Origin: Spirochaetota bacterium
Lineage (GTDB): Bacteria > Spirochaetota > UBA4802 > UBA5550
Direction of reading: 5' to 3'
Length of the DNA: 47,994 nt
NCBI GenBank assembly: GCA_025457915.1
Contig: JALOTL010000021.1
Coordinates: 1-47,994 of the forward strand
The translations under genes were made by a program, and so were the position numbers. Below, piece after piece: positions 15,498 through 30,268 of this stretch; position 1 is the stretch's first letter, and every line of letters begins with the position of its first letter. Below the pieces are notes generated by a model, which worked only from the letters and a program-made list of their open reading frames with translations, searched no databases and was not told the DNA's origin.

Positions 15498-15526
15498 TTG
15501 ACATGTCACCGATTGGTGACATTATG
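15498..15526 (+). promoter_or_regulatory. Promoter with embedded palindromic operator for the TetR gene
   Basis: TTGACA (15498-15503) and CATTAT (15520-15525) are spaced by 16 bases. Between and overlapping them lies a near-perfect palindrome, ATGTCACC-GATT-GGTGACAT (15503-15522), with eight-base arms. It begins 23 bases before the TetR start codon. The position strongly suggests that the TetR protein binds here to repress its own transcript, including the hydrolase gene downstream. Confidence 0.65.
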
Positions 15527-15544
15527 CCCCTATAAAGTGATGCG

Positions 15545-16174
15545 ATGGAAAAAGACAGTAAAAAGACCAGGGAGAAGATCCTGAATGCCACAAAGAAGCT
15601 CCTGGCTGAAGATGGATTCATCTCCTTCGGCATCAATTCCATAGCAAGGACGGCAGGAGTTGACAAGGTCCTGATCTACAGGTATTTCGGTGGATTGAAC
15701 GAACTCATGAACGAGCTTTTCAGGCAAAGCGACTTCTGGCCGGACCTTGATGACCTTCTTGGTGATAATAAACCATTTCTGCAGGAAATGAGTGCCAGGG
15801 AGATCAGCAAGGTCATCCTGAAGGGACGTCTCAGGGAGTTGAGGAAGAGACCTGTTACAATGGAAATCATGAGATGGGAGATGATTCAGAAAAATGAACT
15901 GACAGACGAACTTGCAAGGGAAAGGGAGAAGCAGGGAAGGATGCTTCTGGAGCTTTTACCGAAGAATCTTGAGTTTCCAGAAGGCATGGATATTTCCCCG
16001 GCAGCCGCATTGATTGTAGCTGGAATCACGCATCTCGTGCTGAGATCCGGCAAGATCCGTGAATTTCAGGGCGTTGACCTTGAATCTGAATCAGGGTGGT
16101 CAAGGATAGAGAGTGCCATTGACGTACTGGTCGATGCCTATTTCAGCTATTATGAAAAAAAGAAGACTGAATAA
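15545..16174 (+). CDS. TetR-family transcriptional regulator
   Basis: A 209-residue regulator. The N-terminal helix-turn-helix is typical: TREKILNATKKLLAEDGF, then SINSIARTAGVDKVLIYRYFG-like wording (residues 35-56). The C-terminal ligand domain is helical and not recognisable by substrate. A palindrome with eight-base arms sits in its own promoter (15503-15522), which points to autoregulation. The gene for a C45 hydrolase/barrel fusion starts 19 bases after its stop, so the two are probably co-transcribed and the hydrolase is the likely main target. No strong ribosome site precedes the ATG. Confidence 0.88.
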   Translation: MEKDSKKTREKILNATKKLLAEDGFISFGINSIARTAGVDKVLIYRYFGGLNELMNELFRQSDFWPDLDDLLGDNKPFLQEMSAREISKVILKGRLRELRKRPVTMEIMRWEMIQKNELTDELAREREKQGRMLLELLPKNLEFPEGMDISPAAALIVAGITHLVLRSGKIREFQGVDLESESGWSRIESAIDVLVDAYFSYYEKKKTE

Positions 16175-16193
16175 TGAATAAGAAGGTGAAACC

Positions 16194-18203
16194 ATGTATT
16201 TGAATATTTTTAAGATTTTTTTCGCTTTTTCCCTGCTGATTCTACCTGTCGGATTGAAAGCCGGGATCATCTCGGAATCCAGAATGATGGGACTGCCTGA
16301 AGAGTTTTACAGGGAATACGTCGAGCCTATTATGAACGCTCCGGTATTAAAATTTCATTTTTCTGAATCCACGCACCGGGGATCCTACAGGGATATCGGA
16401 CGATCGCAGGCCAGATCCATTCTCAAGAGGGATCCCGTATACATGGAGAAAAAAATCAGGATGTTGAAGTTGTTATCACTTCATAACCCGCAAGTATTAA
16501 AAATTAACGCAGGCGATATCAGAAAGAGGATATCTGCGTTTTTTCCTGCATACCTTGAAGAAGTGGAAGGGTTCGCGGAGGTAATGAAAATCGATGGGGA
16601 CCTTGCCATGGTAATCTACGGAATGAATTTCGGGAGCCTGCTTCCCGGGTGCAGCATGTTTGCCGTTTCCCGGGAAAGAAGCGGGGACGGCGGAATCATC
16701 GTTGGAAGGAATTACGACTGGTCGCCGGCCCTGAGCGATCTCTCGGTTGTGAGCATAGCGCCGAACGGCGGGTTCGCCTCGGTCGGACTGACGGAATTAA
16801 ACCTTGGACGGCTCGAGGGAATTAATGAAAAAGGTTTATATATATGCATGGCCGGAAGCCCGGCATGGAAAAAAGACGGACACGGATTTTTTTTCGCCCT
16901 TCCGGTCAGGGCGGTTCTCGACAGGGCCTCCGATGTAAATGAAGCGGTTGGCATAATCAGGCAGATACCGTCTTCCGACGGAAGGAACTACCTGATAGCG
17001 GATTCCAGCGGCAATGCCGCGGTTGTCGAGGCCGCTCCCGGCAGGGATATTTCCGTCAGAAGGCTGTCCGACTCGCCTGATGGGATCCTCATAGCCACCA
17101 ATCACTTCCAGAGCGCTGAATTAAAAGGATGCAACAGCAGCGTACTGCCGAATTCCTACGAGCGGCTGAGGATTATCAGGAAGCGTCTCGGCGGGAACGG
17201 AAAGATCCTGGAATCTGACGCTGACGGGCTCCTTCGAAAAGACGGTCCGGAAGGGGTGTTCTGGAAAAACTACGGCATGCTGTTCGGCACGATTCACTCG
17301 AGCATCTGCAGGCCAGAATCCGGAAAGCTCAGGGTAAAGGCCGGCGGTAATGAAAAAACCTATGCGGCAAAAGCGGACATCGACGGATACAGGGAAGTCG
17401 AATATGAAAACAGGGAAGCGAACGTGCTTGATTACATTTCAACAAGCGGGTTCAACCCGGTCGACCTGGATTCTTTTTACTTCAGGGCGGGTCTCGGTTT
17501 TTTTTACAGCGGCCAGATAATAAATCCCGGGGCCGTTATCGATACAGGGTACAAAAAAGGGATCGGCGGATCTGAGAAAATATACGGCAGCAACATTGAT
17601 TTCGGGATGTTCATCAATGCTTCGGTATCATTCCTTCGTTCTGGCGTGAAGGTTTCAATAAATCCCTTTCCGCTGGTATCCATTGAGGCATCGTCTTTTT
17701 ATTGCCAGATCTATCCCGGGATCAACAGGAGCGGAGTCGATGATGGTTCCCTGAGGATTCTCAGGAAAATCAACGGCCTTAAGAATGTTTACGGCACTCC
17801 CGGTATTAGCATTAACCCGGTTTTGAAGTTCGGAGGTATTCTAACGTTCGAGAATAAAATTACATTCTACGATTTTCAGAAACGATACTATGAATACGAA
17901 TCCAATCTTCTGGTGAGAAAAGGGCCTGTATGGTCGCCTTCGATCGAGGTTTTCATACCGTATTCGAGGTATTTTTTATGGGGATTCAGGATTCAATCGA
18001 ATGTCGAACTTTCGGCTGGCGATTACAGGTATTCCCCTCCGCTGAATAACAGGTGGAACATGAATGTGGGTCCGGTCCTGGCTTTTCCTAAAATATTCTA
18101 CGATTCTATACTTTATATAAACGCGGCGTACTGGACCAGGCTTTCAGAGGGGACCATGAGCGGCAGGTTTATGATCCTGGCGGCCGTCCGTTGCCAGATT
18201 TAG
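16194..18203 (+). CDS. C45-type Ntn-hydrolase fused to a predicted outer-membrane beta-barrel
   Basis: A 669-residue secreted protein with a signal peptide (residues 1-24). Residues 30-405 resemble the C45 / acyl-CoA:6-aminopenicillanate acyltransferase family. These are Ntn-hydrolases that self-cleave to expose a Cys nucleophile and then hydrolyse or transfer acyl amides. Cys153 in LLPGCSMFAVS is the presumed nucleophile, followed by GRNYDW (171-176), GINEKGLYICMAGSP and ATNHF (301-305). From about residue 415 onward the sequence changes to alternating aromatic/polar strands (YFRAGLGFFYSGQI, DFGMFINASVSFL, RYFLWGFRIQSNVELS) typical of an outer-membrane barrel of perhaps 8-12 strands. The last residue is Ile rather than an aromatic. 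A good AAGGTG ribosome site precedes the ATG. Substrate is unknown; the barrel is a pattern-based prediction. Confidence 0.72.
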   Translation: MYLNIFKIFFAFSLLILPVGLKAGIISESRMMGLPEEFYREYVEPIMNAPVLKFHFSESTHRGSYRDIGRSQARSILKRDPVYMEKKIRMLKLLSLHNPQVLKINAGDIRKRISAFFPAYLEEVEGFAEVMKIDGDLAMVIYGMNFGSLLPGCSMFAVSRERSGDGGIIVGRNYDWSPALSDLSVVSIAPNGGFASVGLTELNLGRLEGINEKGLYICMAGSPAWKKDGHGFFFALPVRAVLDRASDVNEAVGIIRQIPSSDGRNYLIADSSGNAAVVEAAPGRDISVRRLSDSPDGILIATNHFQSAELKGCNSSVLPNSYERLRIIRKRLGGNGKILESDADGLLRKDGPEGVFWKNYGMLFGTIHSSICRPESGKLRVKAGGNEKTYAAKADIDGYREVEYENREANVLDYISTSGFNPVDLDSFYFRAGLGFFYSGQIINPGAVIDTGYKKGIGGSEKIYGSNIDFGMFINASVSFLRSGVKVSINPFPLVSIEASSFYCQIYPGINRSGVDDGSLRILRKINGLKNVYGTPGISINPVLKFGGILTFENKITFYDFQKRYYEYESNLLVRKGPVWSPSIEVFIPYSRYFLWGFRIQSNVELSAGDYRYSPPLNNRWNMNVGPVLAFPKIFYDSILYINAAYWTRLSEGTMSGRFMILAAVRCQI

Positions 18204-18213
18204 ATGATATCGA

Positions 18214-20499
18214 TCAAAGCCTGTATCCGATATTTACGTTGAAAAGAACGTTCTTTTTCACGCTCCCGTACAGGATTGAAAGCTCAATCGGTCCTATGAT
18301 GCTGTTCATTCCGAATGTTACCCCGCACCCGTAAATCAGCGATTTCATGTTGAATACGGTGGATAAATAATACCCGGCCTTTCCCGCGTTGCCCCTGAAT
18401 ATCAGGAATTTGTCCTTCCAGGGTTCGATCTGGACGCCAATCTGGGCCATGGCGGCATTTTTTCCGTTGACCTGCATGTAGCTGAGCCCGGCGAAAGGGA
18501 AATATTCGTTTTTATATGTGTACAATCCGCCAAGGTAGTTTTTATATACGAATGGGATTTCCTTTTTATATACCTGGAGACCATAGGTTTTATCCACGTT
18601 AACTGAATACCTGTCTGTTGAAACTACCGCGCTCCCGGCAAGATTCAGAAATACCGAGACTTTTTTATGCACCGGCACCGCCATGGTGGATTTTGCGGTA
18701 TATTTCTGAAAGGACTCGAACCTTGTGGATCTACCGATAGAGGTTATCCCGAAGCTTTTTCCCACGGGGAAATCGTCGGTATAATACCTGGCTTCGCCGT
18801 AAAGCCTGAATCCACTCTTCGGATAAAAAGTACTGTCGAGCGTGTCAACATTAATGAAGCAGTAGTAATTGAGGGATTCTATGTCACGGCGGTTCGGTTC
18901 ATCCACGGATACTATTGAATTGATATCGTTATAATTCTTCTGCAGCCCGGCGCCAAGGGCGATCGAGTTGTAGATTACGGCCTGCACGATCATGTCGCCT
19001 GAAATTTCATTGAAATTGTAACTTCCCTTGACGTCTTTATTTTTGTAGGAATAGAAATTGAACCTGTTATATTCCAGGGATGTGCCCAGCCCGATCCCGG
19101 GTTTTCTCCATCCGGAGTGGATGAAATAGGATAACTTCAGGCCCGGGTACTCGCTCAGCCTCGCGTCAACGGCGAGCTTTGATCCCTGTCCGAGCAGATT
19201 GCGGAATGTAGTGTTCACCATTATTCCCGCCCTCATGTCCGAATCGTAACTGAATCCCAGTTTGAGAAATGTTGCAGTGTTCTCTATCACCCTTATTTTC
19301 AGCACATACCCATTCTCGTCCCAATTCAGCTCGTAGGTCACCCTGTCGAAAAATTGACTTGCATATATCCTGTTGATTCCCTCTTCGAGTTCTTCGGGAG
19401 ATACGAGCGCGGGTATGGGGACCAGGAATTTTCCAAGGACGAGGTTTTCGGATACCTTGTTGAGCCCCTCGATCCTGACCTCTTTAATGTATATTTTACA
19501 TGAAATCGACAGCTCTTTCTTTTTCTCGATTGCAAATTTTTTCTGTTCCTCTGCCATGGCTATAAGTTTCGGAATAAACTCTCTTGCAGCCTTTTCGCCG
19601 TTTTGAATCAGTTTTTCGGCATCCTGGAAGTTGGTAGCGTTATACCCGTTTATATCAGGCAGTATCAGGATATCAGTCAACTTGCGCTCTTCCCTTGTCG
19701 ATTTTGCTCCGAGAAAACTCACCGACTGGTCCATGACTTCCGCTATGGATGTGATTTCATTTTTTTTGTACAGGGGCGAGCCGACGTCGACCGCTATGAT
19801 GATGTCGGCTCCCATCTTTCTTGCGTCTGAAACGGGAAGGTTCCTGACTACGCCGCCGTCGACCAGAAGCTTTCCGTCTATTTCTATCGGTGTGAATACC
19901 GATGGGATCGACATGCTGGCCCTTAGCGCGTCAGGCAGATATCCGTTTTTTAAAACGACTGCCTTGCCGGTTTCTATGTCCGTGGCGATGCACAGGAAAG
20001 GGATCGGATAATCGGCGAACTCCTTTATGCTCTGGGCCTGTATGGTCAGTCGTGAAAGCATGGTTGTCAATTTCTGACCCCTGATGAGTCCTTTCGGTAA
20101 TTCTATGGACCATTTTTTCAACGGGAAAGATCCGATGTATTTGTCGTGATCGTCCTTTTCATCGATCGACAGGGAGTCCCTGGAAACCTGGTCTCCGATG
20201 AGATCCTCCCAGTCGATCACGCGCGCCAGTTTTTCAAGAGATCCTGCGTCATAACCGATAGCGTACAGACCGCCCACGATGCTGCCCATGCTTGTCCCGG
20301 AAATATAATCAATTTTAAGCCCGCATTCTTCTATAACTTTGAGGACGCCGATGTGCGCAAGACCCTTGGCGCCGCCGCCGCTTAAAACAAGACCGATTTT
20401 CGGTCGTTTGGCTTTCGTATTTTCCGCAAAGCTATCTTTAGAAAATGAGAGAATAATAGCAAGAATGGTAAAAAACGTCGATAATCTGATGCTGGACAT
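18214..20499 (-). CDS. Patatin-like phospholipase with POTRA and beta-barrel (PlpD-like)
   Basis: A 761-residue protein with an N-terminal signal peptide (about residues 1-25). Residues 32-310 are a patatin lipase: oxyanion loop GGGAKG (41-46), nucleophile Ser70 in GTSMG, and catalytic Asp214 in VDGGVVRNLPV. Residues ~330-410 look like a single POTRA domain (KIYIKEVRIEGLNKVSENLVLGKF... DRVTYELNW). The rest is a BamA-superfamily 16-strand-type barrel (FLKLGFSYDSDMRAGIMVNTTFRN... LSILYGSVKKNVLFNVNIGYRL). This is the layout of type Vd autotransporters such as PlpD, which export or display a lipase at the cell surface. It converges on the C45-barrel gene with a 10-base gap. All catalytic residues are intact. 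Confidence 0.9.
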   Translation of the reverse strand: MSSIRLSTFFTILAIILSFSKDSFAENTKAKRPKIGLVLSGGGAKGLAHIGVLKVIEECGLKIDYISGTSMGSIVGGLYAIGYDAGSLEKLARVIDWEDLIGDQVSRDSLSIDEKDDHDKYIGSFPLKKWSIELPKGLIRGQKLTTMLSRLTIQAQSIKEFADYPIPFLCIATDIETGKAVVLKNGYLPDALRASMSIPSVFTPIEIDGKLLVDGGVVRNLPVSDARKMGADIIIAVDVGSPLYKKNEITSIAEVMDQSVSFLGAKSTREERKLTDILILPDINGYNATNFQDAEKLIQNGEKAAREFIPKLIAMAEEQKKFAIEKKKELSISCKIYIKEVRIEGLNKVSENLVLGKFLVPIPALVSPEELEEGINRIYASQFFDRVTYELNWDENGYVLKIRVIENTATFLKLGFSYDSDMRAGIMVNTTFRNLLGQGSKLAVDARLSEYPGLKLSYFIHSGWRKPGIGLGTSLEYNRFNFYSYKNKDVKGSYNFNEISGDMIVQAVIYNSIALGAGLQKNYNDINSIVSVDEPNRRDIESLNYYCFINVDTLDSTFYPKSGFRLYGEARYYTDDFPVGKSFGITSIGRSTRFESFQKYTAKSTMAVPVHKKVSVFLNLAGSAVVSTDRYSVNVDKTYGLQVYKKEIPFVYKNYLGGLYTYKNEYFPFAGLSYMQVNGKNAAMAQIGVQIEPWKDKFLIFRGNAGKAGYYLSTVFNMKSLIYGCGVTFGMNSIIGPIELSILYGSVKKNVLFNVNIGYRL

Positions 20500-28333: not shown

Positions 28334-29293
28334 TTACGCGTGAACAACCCTGTTTTTCCCCATTTCCTTGGCCTTATAAAGGGATTCATCCGCACCGGCC
28401 TTGAAGGATTCGAGCTCCGTCGCGGTTTCTGGAAAAGAGCTTATGCCGATGCTCGTAGTTACCCTGATTTTTATCCCGCTGGTATGGCCGGAAAAATCGA
28501 GCATTTCCACGTTTTTCCTGATCTGCTCCGCGATTTCCAGGGATTTTTTCAGATCGGCCTCGGGCAGGAGTATCGAGAACTCGTCTCCGCCGTACCTTGC
28601 GATTATCCCGTGCCTGCTGATCAGGTTTTTTATCAATCCGACCAGCTCGAGGAGGATCCTGTTCCCTGCTTCGAGGCCCCATTTTTCGTTGATTTCCCTG
28701 AAGTCGTCGAGATCGATCATGAAAAGTGACAGGGGTTTATTGTTGCTTTTCGATATGTTGAAGAAGTTTTCAAAGGCGTCCTCGAGAAAAGCGCGGTTGT
28801 AGACGCCGGTAAGCTCGTCCGTCACGGTCCTCCTGCTTGCGTTTTCGCCCCATTCAACGACATCGGAAAGGAAACGGCTCGTGTTTCTGAGCTTCTGTAT
28901 GGTGAGACCCAGTAGGCGCGATATGAGCTTGATGGACGATCCGGGGTTGTTTTCAATGAGATCGGAAAAATTTTTTTTATTTATCGAGAGGAGGACGCTT
29001 TTTTCAACCGCCCTGTAGGTGGTGAACTGCGGTCTGCCTGCAAAAAATGAAATCTCGCCGAAGAAATCCCCGGGAAGGAAAACCCCGTGCTTCCGGTCGA
29101 TGTTCCCCGGGAGCTTCATCTCGCTTGTTATCCTGCCTTCATGAACGATGAAGAGTTCCCTGTTGATTTCCCCGGCCTTGATGATGATTTCGCCCTCGTC
29201 GAATTCCTTTCTGATGAAAAGTTTTTCTAGCACTGCGGCGTCCCCTTTGCCGAGTCCCTCGAATATATCGCGGTTTTTAAGCGGTTCCTTCAT
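28334..29293 (-). CDS. cNMP-binding domain plus GGDEF domain protein (first of a tandem pair)
   Basis: A 319-residue cytoplasmic signalling protein. Residues ~10-125 form a cyclic-nucleotide-binding-like barrel (GEIIIKAGEINRELFIVHEGRI... GDFFGEISFFAG). The phosphate cassette lacks the usual Arg, so ligand binding is doubtful. Residues 155-319 are a GGDEF domain with intact GGDEF (235-239) and the metal ligands MIDLDDF (Asp194). The Asp that contacts the guanine base is Asn here (GLEAGN, Asn211). No RxxD inhibitory site precedes GGDEF. It lies 12 bases after its paralogue, so the two are co-transcribed. Diguanylate cyclase activity is plausible; the Asp-to-Asn change might alter nucleotide preference. 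Confidence 0.88.
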   Translation of the reverse strand: MKEPLKNRDIFEGLGKGDAAVLEKLFIRKEFDEGEIIIKAGEINRELFIVHEGRITSEMKLPGNIDRKHGVFLPGDFFGEISFFAGRPQFTTYRAVEKSVLLSINKKNFSDLIENNPGSSIKLISRLLGLTIQKLRNTSRFLSDVVEWGENASRRTVTDELTGVYNRAFLEDAFENFFNISKSNNKPLSLFMIDLDDFREINEKWGLEAGNRILLELVGLIKNLISRHGIIARYGGDEFSILLPEADLKKSLEIAEQIRKNVEMLDFSGHTSGIKIRVTTSIGISSFPETATELESFKAGADESLYKAKEMGKNRVVHA

Positions 29294-29305
29294 TTGTATT
29301 CCAGT

Positions 29306-30268
29306 TCAGATGACTATGCTTCCGCCCTTATCTCTGGCCTTAAAAAGATTCCCATAGGCCTTTTTCAGGAGAATTTCGCTGTCTTCGCCATGATCCGGAT
29401 AGACGGCTATGCCGATGCTGGTCGGGATCCCGGGTCCGTCCGGTCCTGTTATGCCTGATATATTTATCGACCCAATTGCGGCCTGTATTTCCTCGGCCCT
29501 CTTTACCGCATTGTCCATGCCCGTATCGGTAAGTATTGCGGCGAATTCGTCTCCGCCGTACCTGATGCCTATATCGTTTTCCCCGAGCTCGGACTGCAGG
29601 AAAATGGCGATGAGATTCAGAACCTGGTCCCCGGCCTCGTGGCCGAAACCGTCATTGATGTCCTTGAAGTTGTCCGGCTTAATCATAAGAAGCGCCGCGC
29701 TTTTTCCAAGATCGGGGAGGATGTTTATAAAATCCTCCTTCAGGAAGTTCTGGTTGTATAACCCAGTCATTTTGTCGCACAGGAGCTGCCTGTGAAGGTC
29801 CTGTAGCCAACCGGTTTTGTCGAAAAGGAGCTTGTTTACGTTCCAGATCCTTTCGGAAATGATTCCCAGGAGCCTCTGGAGCATCCTGGCTGAAACATAC
29901 GCGTGGTCCCTGAAAATGGTTTCCGAATCGTAGCCCCTTGAGGGAAACCTGAGAACTACGGTGTCCTCCTCGGCGAACGCTCCGGCGGACCTTTCAGACA
30001 TGCCGAGGAAGTCCATCTCGCCGAATGATTCACCGGCCACTATCTGCGCAATGGTGACATTTCCGCTGTCCACCCCTATTATGCCCACGCGGCCTTTTTC
30101 CACTACATAAAGGCTTCGCGCGCGCTTACCCTGCCCGAATATCGCCTGGCCTTTTTTGCAGTTTATAAATTCGCTGTATTTCGATATGATATCGAGCTCA
30201 TATTCCCTCAGCTGGGAAAATATCTCGCTTTTTCTCAGGAGTTCTACTTTATCTTCATGAAGGGCCAT
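29306..30268 (-). CDS. cNMP-binding domain plus GGDEF domain protein (second of a tandem pair)
   Basis: A 320-residue paralogue of the next gene with the same layout: a cNMP-binding-like domain (residues 15-125, GESFGEMDFLGMSERSAGAFA, with an Arg in the cassette) and a GGDEF domain (165-320). The GGDEF motif itself is intact (238-242) and the base-contacting Asn205 and Asp214 are conserved. The first metal-binding Asp of the usual DxDxFK block is Lys here (MIKPDNFKDIND, Lys197). Loss of this ligand should impair or abolish cyclase activity. It may instead be a sensor or a partner in a mixed dimer with its paralogue. No inhibitory RxxD site is present. Confidence 0.88.
   Translation of the reverse strand: MALHEDKVELLRKSEIFSQLREYELDIISKYSEFINCKKGQAIFGQGKRARSLYVVEKGRVGIIGVDSGNVTIAQIVAGESFGEMDFLGMSERSAGAFAEEDTVVLRFPSRGYDSETIFRDHAYVSARMLQRLLGIISERIWNVNKLLFDKTGWLQDLHRQLLCDKMTGLYNQNFLKEDFINILPDLGKSAALLMIKPDNFKDINDGFGHEAGDQVLNLIAIFLQSELGENDIGIRYGGDEFAAILTDTGMDNAVKRAEEIQAAIGSINISGITGPDGPGIPTSIGIAVYPDHGEDSEILLKKAYGNLFKARDKGGSIVI

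Follow-up and report, generated by a model that had tools for sequence, protein, structure and literature searches.

One gene in the 47,994-nucleotide stretch of spirochaete DNA analysed here (the window) appears to join a C45 Ntn-hydrolase to an outer-membrane barrel within a single polypeptide, which raises the questions of whether its C-terminal part is indeed a barrel, on which side of the outer membrane the enzyme would then sit, and how the gene might be controlled. The open reading frames of a TetR-family regulator and of the fusion itself have the coordinates given by the original prediction; they lie on the same strand, with the TetR gene upstream and a gap of 19 bp between the two. 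The features of the locus are as follows.

15498-15525, plus strand: sigma-70-like promoter TTGACA-16-CATTAT (10/12 match), directly before the TetR gene
15503-15522, no strand assigned: candidate TetR operator ATGTCACC-GATT-GGTGACAT, a perfect inverted repeat (8+4+8) with arms 100% complementary
15545-16174, plus strand: TetR-family regulator gene, 209 aa (PF00440, N-terminal HTH, 9.9e-10, 38.5 bits against a cut-off of 24)
16194-18203, plus strand: gene of the C45 Ntn-hydrolase/outer-membrane barrel fusion, 669 aa, a single open reading frame
16194-16262, plus strand: apparent signal peptide, residues 1-23 (MYLNIFKIFFAFSLLILPVGLKA), from sequence inspection
16263-16649, plus strand: prosegment (alpha chain), residues 24-152, ending ...LLPG before Cys153 (alignment A3; fold match to precursor 2x1c; putative cleavage)
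16650-17378, plus strand: catalytic beta-chain core, residues 153-395 (conservation in 50 homologues; AlphaFold2 pLDDT mostly 85-98 at residues 151-390)
17379-17471, plus strand: linker, residues 396-426 (about 30 residues), without an internal signal peptide
17472-18200, plus strand: predicted 12-stranded outer-membrane barrel domain, residues 427-669 (AlphaFold2 with family alignment A4; Foldseek)

The enzyme domain and its putative regulation

The proposal that this protein is a C45 Ntn-hydrolase with Cys153 as its nucleophile is borne out by two profiles that score above their cut-offs and by the conservation of that residue. NF040521 (C45 autoproteolytic acyltransferase/hydrolase) matches over positions 1-313 of its 313 at 2.6e-61, scoring 207.7 bits (cut-off, 85), and PF03417 matches the 669-residue protein at 7e-33, scoring 114.6 bits (cut-off, 23.2). 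Cys153, at the nucleophile position of a GCS motif that starts the beta chain, is found in 50 of 50 aligned homologues; Asn211, Glu212, Asp270, Asn303, and Arg324 are likewise invariant among these, Arg172 is kept in 48, and position 175 is occupied by Asp (38) or Glu (12). In the AlphaFold2 model, 10-residue blocks of the enzyme part between residues 60 and 390 mostly reach pLDDT values of 83-98, with dips to 64-77. Foldseek ranks isopenicillin-N acyltransferase, in its precursor and mature forms (2x1c, 2x1d, and 2x1e; E of 1e-14 to 1e-13, probability 1.00), as the best match in the PDB, followed by CV2077, N-acylethanolamine acid amidase, a 66.3-kDa protein, and choloylglycine hydrolases, and the matches to 2x1c, 2x1d, and 2x1e identify the alpha-beta-beta-alpha Ntn fold. 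From family membership and conservation, we infer that the proenzyme would cleave itself between Gly152 and Cys153.

The original prediction also placed a palindromic operator in the promoter of an upstream TetR gene, and the overlap of palindrome and promoter was recovered by computation, with the operator remaining a candidate: the palindrome overlaps the spacer between the -35 element TTGACA (15498) and the -10 element CATTAT (ending at 15525), and its 7+4+7 core is found exactly once, both in the window and in the 3.66-Mb genome. Promoter matches of the 10/12 type are no more numerous in the region than in shuffles, and this promoter is credible because its position coincides with the palindrome. 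The simplest reading of such an anatomy would be autorepression by TetR, with read-through into the hydrolase gene. The nearest TetR proteins within the same order are 28-46% identical, over parts only, and no TetR neighbour was seen at other C45 loci when these were searched with a rather insensitive TetR profile, so that the regulatory linkage between TetR and C45 rests on one locus. Nor was a conserved gene neighbourhood around the fusion gene found in relatives, in which the patatin and epimerase neighbour genes are present but separated from each other and without the fusion gene. A quorum-sensing lactone or a lipopeptide had been suggested as the inducer or substrate, and nothing in our analysis speaks for either.

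The C-terminal domain and its distant relatives

The C-terminal domain comprises 260 residues and has no match in Pfam, PHROGs, PDB sequences, or plasmid and phage libraries. Neither a POTRA nor an Omp85 match was obtained for the fusion protein, and no Pfam autotransporter beta-domain matched it even at an E value of 10. A second copy of the domain was not found in the same genome, and a single-sequence search of 46 genomes of the order returned no relative (best other match, E 0.07). An internal signal peptide or a plausible separate gene start was not found in front of the barrel, which would thus be exportable only as part of the fusion. By a crude count of strand-like amphipathic windows, the domain has 11 where its shuffles have 6.5 +/- 1.9 (p = 0.02), an enrichment similar to that of the neighbouring Omp85 barrel (17, shuffles 10.2 +/- 2.3) and in contrast to the C45 domain (10, shuffles 10.2). 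The last predicted strand, FMILAAVRCQ, ends one residue short of the C terminus, where the final residue is Ile as opposed to the usual Phe or Trp.

Built with alignment A4, AlphaFold2 produced a 12-stranded barrel (pLDDT 67, pTM 0.63), with relatives in that alignment only 8-17% identical to the query. Without a family alignment, the same region scored pLDDT values mostly of 22-45, so that the alignment may itself have imposed part of the barrel fold. Foldseek neighbours of the barrel model are all transmembrane barrels, namely, NanC, FapF, NalP, OmpG, KdgM, intimin/invasin, BamA, and mitochondrial SAM, with BrkA and EspP also among the matches. Structure prediction of this part had been set beforehand as a possible refutation of the barrel, and a barrel is what it returned, in a model that depends on a distantly related alignment. 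Together, the amphipathic-strand enrichment, a distant family relationship, and the 12-strand model agree with the outer-membrane barrel character originally proposed, and a transmembrane barrel is the supported assignment for the C-terminal domain at the level of a prediction that leans on that alignment.

The family in question was reached through a weak match. Among 393 spirochaete genomes, the best hit to the C-terminal domain (E 1e-3) was a predicted outer-membrane barrel, L017, which has the stretch SNI-FG...GV-VS-NPFP-S in common with it. This protein belongs to a large family of spirochaete barrels (L017, L216-L245, and L246-L285) that is represented in 129 of the 393 genomes and takes in the Borrelia DipA locus. 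Those of its members that were tested matched no Pfam or NCBIfam model (six members in the case of Pfam). The Borrelia member, L267, is flanked by an adenylate-kinase-like gene and a response-regulator/GGDEF gene, which we take to be adk and rrp1, the genes bordering bb0418, the gene of DipA. DipA (BB0418) is a stand-alone outer-membrane channel of 36 kDa (PMC3349712).

Whether the fused domain belongs to this family was judged from several profile comparisons, none of them overwhelming when taken singly. The fused domain went undetected in a HMMER search with the family profile, and the query compared with same-order barrels by HMMER was not significant either; hhalign aligned it in register with the broad family at P 0.04. 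When the profiles were aligned leniently, two of the three gap settings gave p values of about 0.01 or below relative to shuffles in which the even/odd alternation pattern is preserved. Leaving out the bait and its close relatives did not change this; the strictest gap setting then gave a p of about 0.06. In the controls, z was near 0 for two other barrels of the window but, with lenient gaps, about 2 for the first half of the Omp85 barrel, and the test is accordingly only a partial discriminator of barrel families. A search with the A4 profile, which contains the family and the query, recovered six standalone predicted barrels in the same order (L290-L295); its match to the fusion gene itself (2.4e-17) arises by construction and is not counted. 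These six also match the family profile made without the query, and an hhalign comparison of the query with them gives P = 8.7e-4 and a score of 31.7, whereas decoys (three other window barrels and eight shuffles) score 12.7-17.0, with P values of 0.18-0.55. NMNVGPVLAF paired with HMRVGPVVAW is one example of the corresponding stretches. The six barrels thereby form a bridge between the fused domain and the DipA-like family, for which a distant common origin is likely, though not proven.

Occurrence of the fusion and neighbouring genes

The C45-barrel fusion is confined to one genome within the samples searched, which included several hundred relatives. C45 enzymes were found in 89 of the 393 spirochaete genomes sampled, and a barrel fusion in none of 80 C45 loci of a wider genome collection, in a scan that detects only relatives with shared short motifs. 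Close relatives of the whole 669-residue protein were absent from GTDB contigs, plasmid, phage, and anti-phage-defence libraries yielded ordinary C45 enzymes only, and no Ntn-hydrolase-barrel fusion was found in the literature. The rarity claimed for this layout holds for the 80 loci from other genomes and for the spirochaete homologues checked.

Several candidates for further fusions were set aside. Long C45 proteins fetched from spirochaetes turned out to carry TPR-like tails or enlarged enzyme domains in place of a barrel, and most others are open reading frames of ordinary length. TPR-like C-terminal tails occur in six C45 enzymes of related spirochaetes (L007, L008, L011, L015, L052, and L053), of which L052 (G000:C19) comes from the genome of the fusion itself and is the second C45 gene there. 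A 1,296-residue frame with a DipA-like end (L246) is, by our reading, an upstream read-through before a normal barrel gene. In another genome (G244, L088:1027-2797), a C45 gene is followed about 58 bp on by a separate DipA-like barrel gene that is cut by the contig end; the enzyme there has no apparent signal peptide and lies downstream of an aminotransferase-like gene, and its pairing with the barrel may be due to chance.

Convergent with the fusion gene and ending about 10 bp from it is a gene on the minus strand (18214-20499) for a patatin-POTRA-Omp85 fusion of PlpD-like, type Vd layout, copies of which are found at 44-55% identity in several genomes of the same order. Farther along, at 28334-30268 on the minus strand, two adjacent genes each appear by eye to encode a cyclic-nucleotide-binding domain followed by GGDEF, apparently as a tandem duplicate.

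Membrane placement, alternatives, and known systems

Our results lead us to favor, with reasonable though far from complete confidence, an outer-membrane-anchored and probably periplasm-facing C45 Ntn-hydrolase, possibly fed by its own pore and encoded in a putatively TetR-repressed operon. The N-terminal signal peptide would export the fusion protein, and its barrel, of probable spirochaete lineage, would enter the outer membrane via the BAM machinery. The N-terminal proenzyme would then fold and cut itself, freeing Cys153 as the nucleophile, and the enzyme would most likely hang on the periplasmic face of the outer membrane. Two features speak for this side: the enzyme comes before strand 1 of a barrel with an even number of strands, and the related barrels are free-standing. 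The surface exposure suggested in the original prediction is not what such an arrangement would lead one to expect, unless the N-terminal domain is exported in the manner of an autotransporter passenger. A small acyl-amide compound may enter through or near the barrel, to be hydrolysed, or to have its acyl group transferred, on arrival. As the promoter anatomy suggests, TetR would bind the palindrome and repress both its own promoter and the hydrolase gene, until a small ligand, perhaps the substrate or the product, lifts the repression. More tentatively, we speculate that enzyme and channel are coupled, such that a substrate-selective DipA-like barrel feeds a periplasmic acyl-amide hydrolase while the dedicated TetR senses the same compound; we regard this extension as conceivable but on balance doubtful.

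Export to the surface, with the 12-stranded barrel acting as a translocator and the linker (residues 396-426) lying inside its pore, is rather unlikely in our judgment, even though 12 strands in about 245 residues match the size of classical translocator domains, NalP, BrkA, and EspP are among the fold matches, and the neighbouring patatin-POTRA-Omp85 gene encodes an enzyme-barrel layout presumed to serve for display of the enzyme. Set against this, the barrel's distant relatives stand free, with only a signal peptide in front, and are not passenger carriers, the protein matches no Pfam autotransporter family and has no POTRA domain, and threading a folded, self-cleaving Ntn proenzyme through the pore would be hard. 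A more plausible competitor, to which we give roughly one chance in three, is that the domain is a mere membrane anchor, a degenerated barrel that no longer serves as a channel. It has drifted far from its relatives and is seen in one genome only, but it retains 12 of 12 strands and their amphipathic alternation; this possibility overlaps with the explanation we favor, in which the channel role is left open.

Two further readings would do away with the barrel or with the fusion itself. That the C terminus is a soluble beta-rich domain would explain why Pfam, PDB, and BLAST searches gave no match and why unaided AlphaFold2 left it unmodelled; strand amphipathicity, the family relationship, the model, and its fold neighbours in the PDB all point to a barrel, and we consider a soluble domain improbable. 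An assembly accident or a recent read-through of two genes would fit the occurrence in a single genome but is very improbable, since the frame is uninterrupted, no start codon with a signal peptide precedes the barrel, the two parts are joined by a linker of about 30 residues, and their GC contents (0.51 and 0.46) fall inside the range of neighbouring genes.

Most C45 homologues in our collection are free enzymes, and one built into a barrel would be a new placement of this chemistry at the cell boundary, in which the coupling of uptake and breakdown could naturally be modelled.

Among known systems, EstA-type esterase autotransporters likewise carry a globular enzyme ahead of a 12-strand barrel; unlike these, the fusion has no autotransporter family match, and nothing points to surface display. 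Type Vd proteins of the PlpD-like patatin-POTRA-Omp85 kind also place a hydrolase before a C-terminal outer-membrane barrel in one chain, but their barrel has 16 strands, whereas the fusion has a different enzyme fold and a 12-stranded barrel of a different family without POTRA. With the DipA/Oms38 (BB0418) porins of Borrelia and their spirochaete relatives, from which the 12-strand model was built, the fused barrel appears to share a distant sequence relationship and strand order; it differs in standing behind an enzyme, in its very low identity, and in a pore role that is conjectural, while DipA is a stand-alone 36-kDa channel (PMC3349712). The enzyme half resembles the acyl-CoA:isopenicillin-N acyltransferase of Penicillium (IPNAT/AAT; 2x1c and 2x1d) and the bacterial C45 hydrolases (NF040521) in fold, prosegment, nucleophilic Cys, and supporting Arg, Asp, and Asn residues, and in this comparison, the apparent signal peptide and the fused, predicted outer-membrane barrel belong to the spirochaete protein alone.
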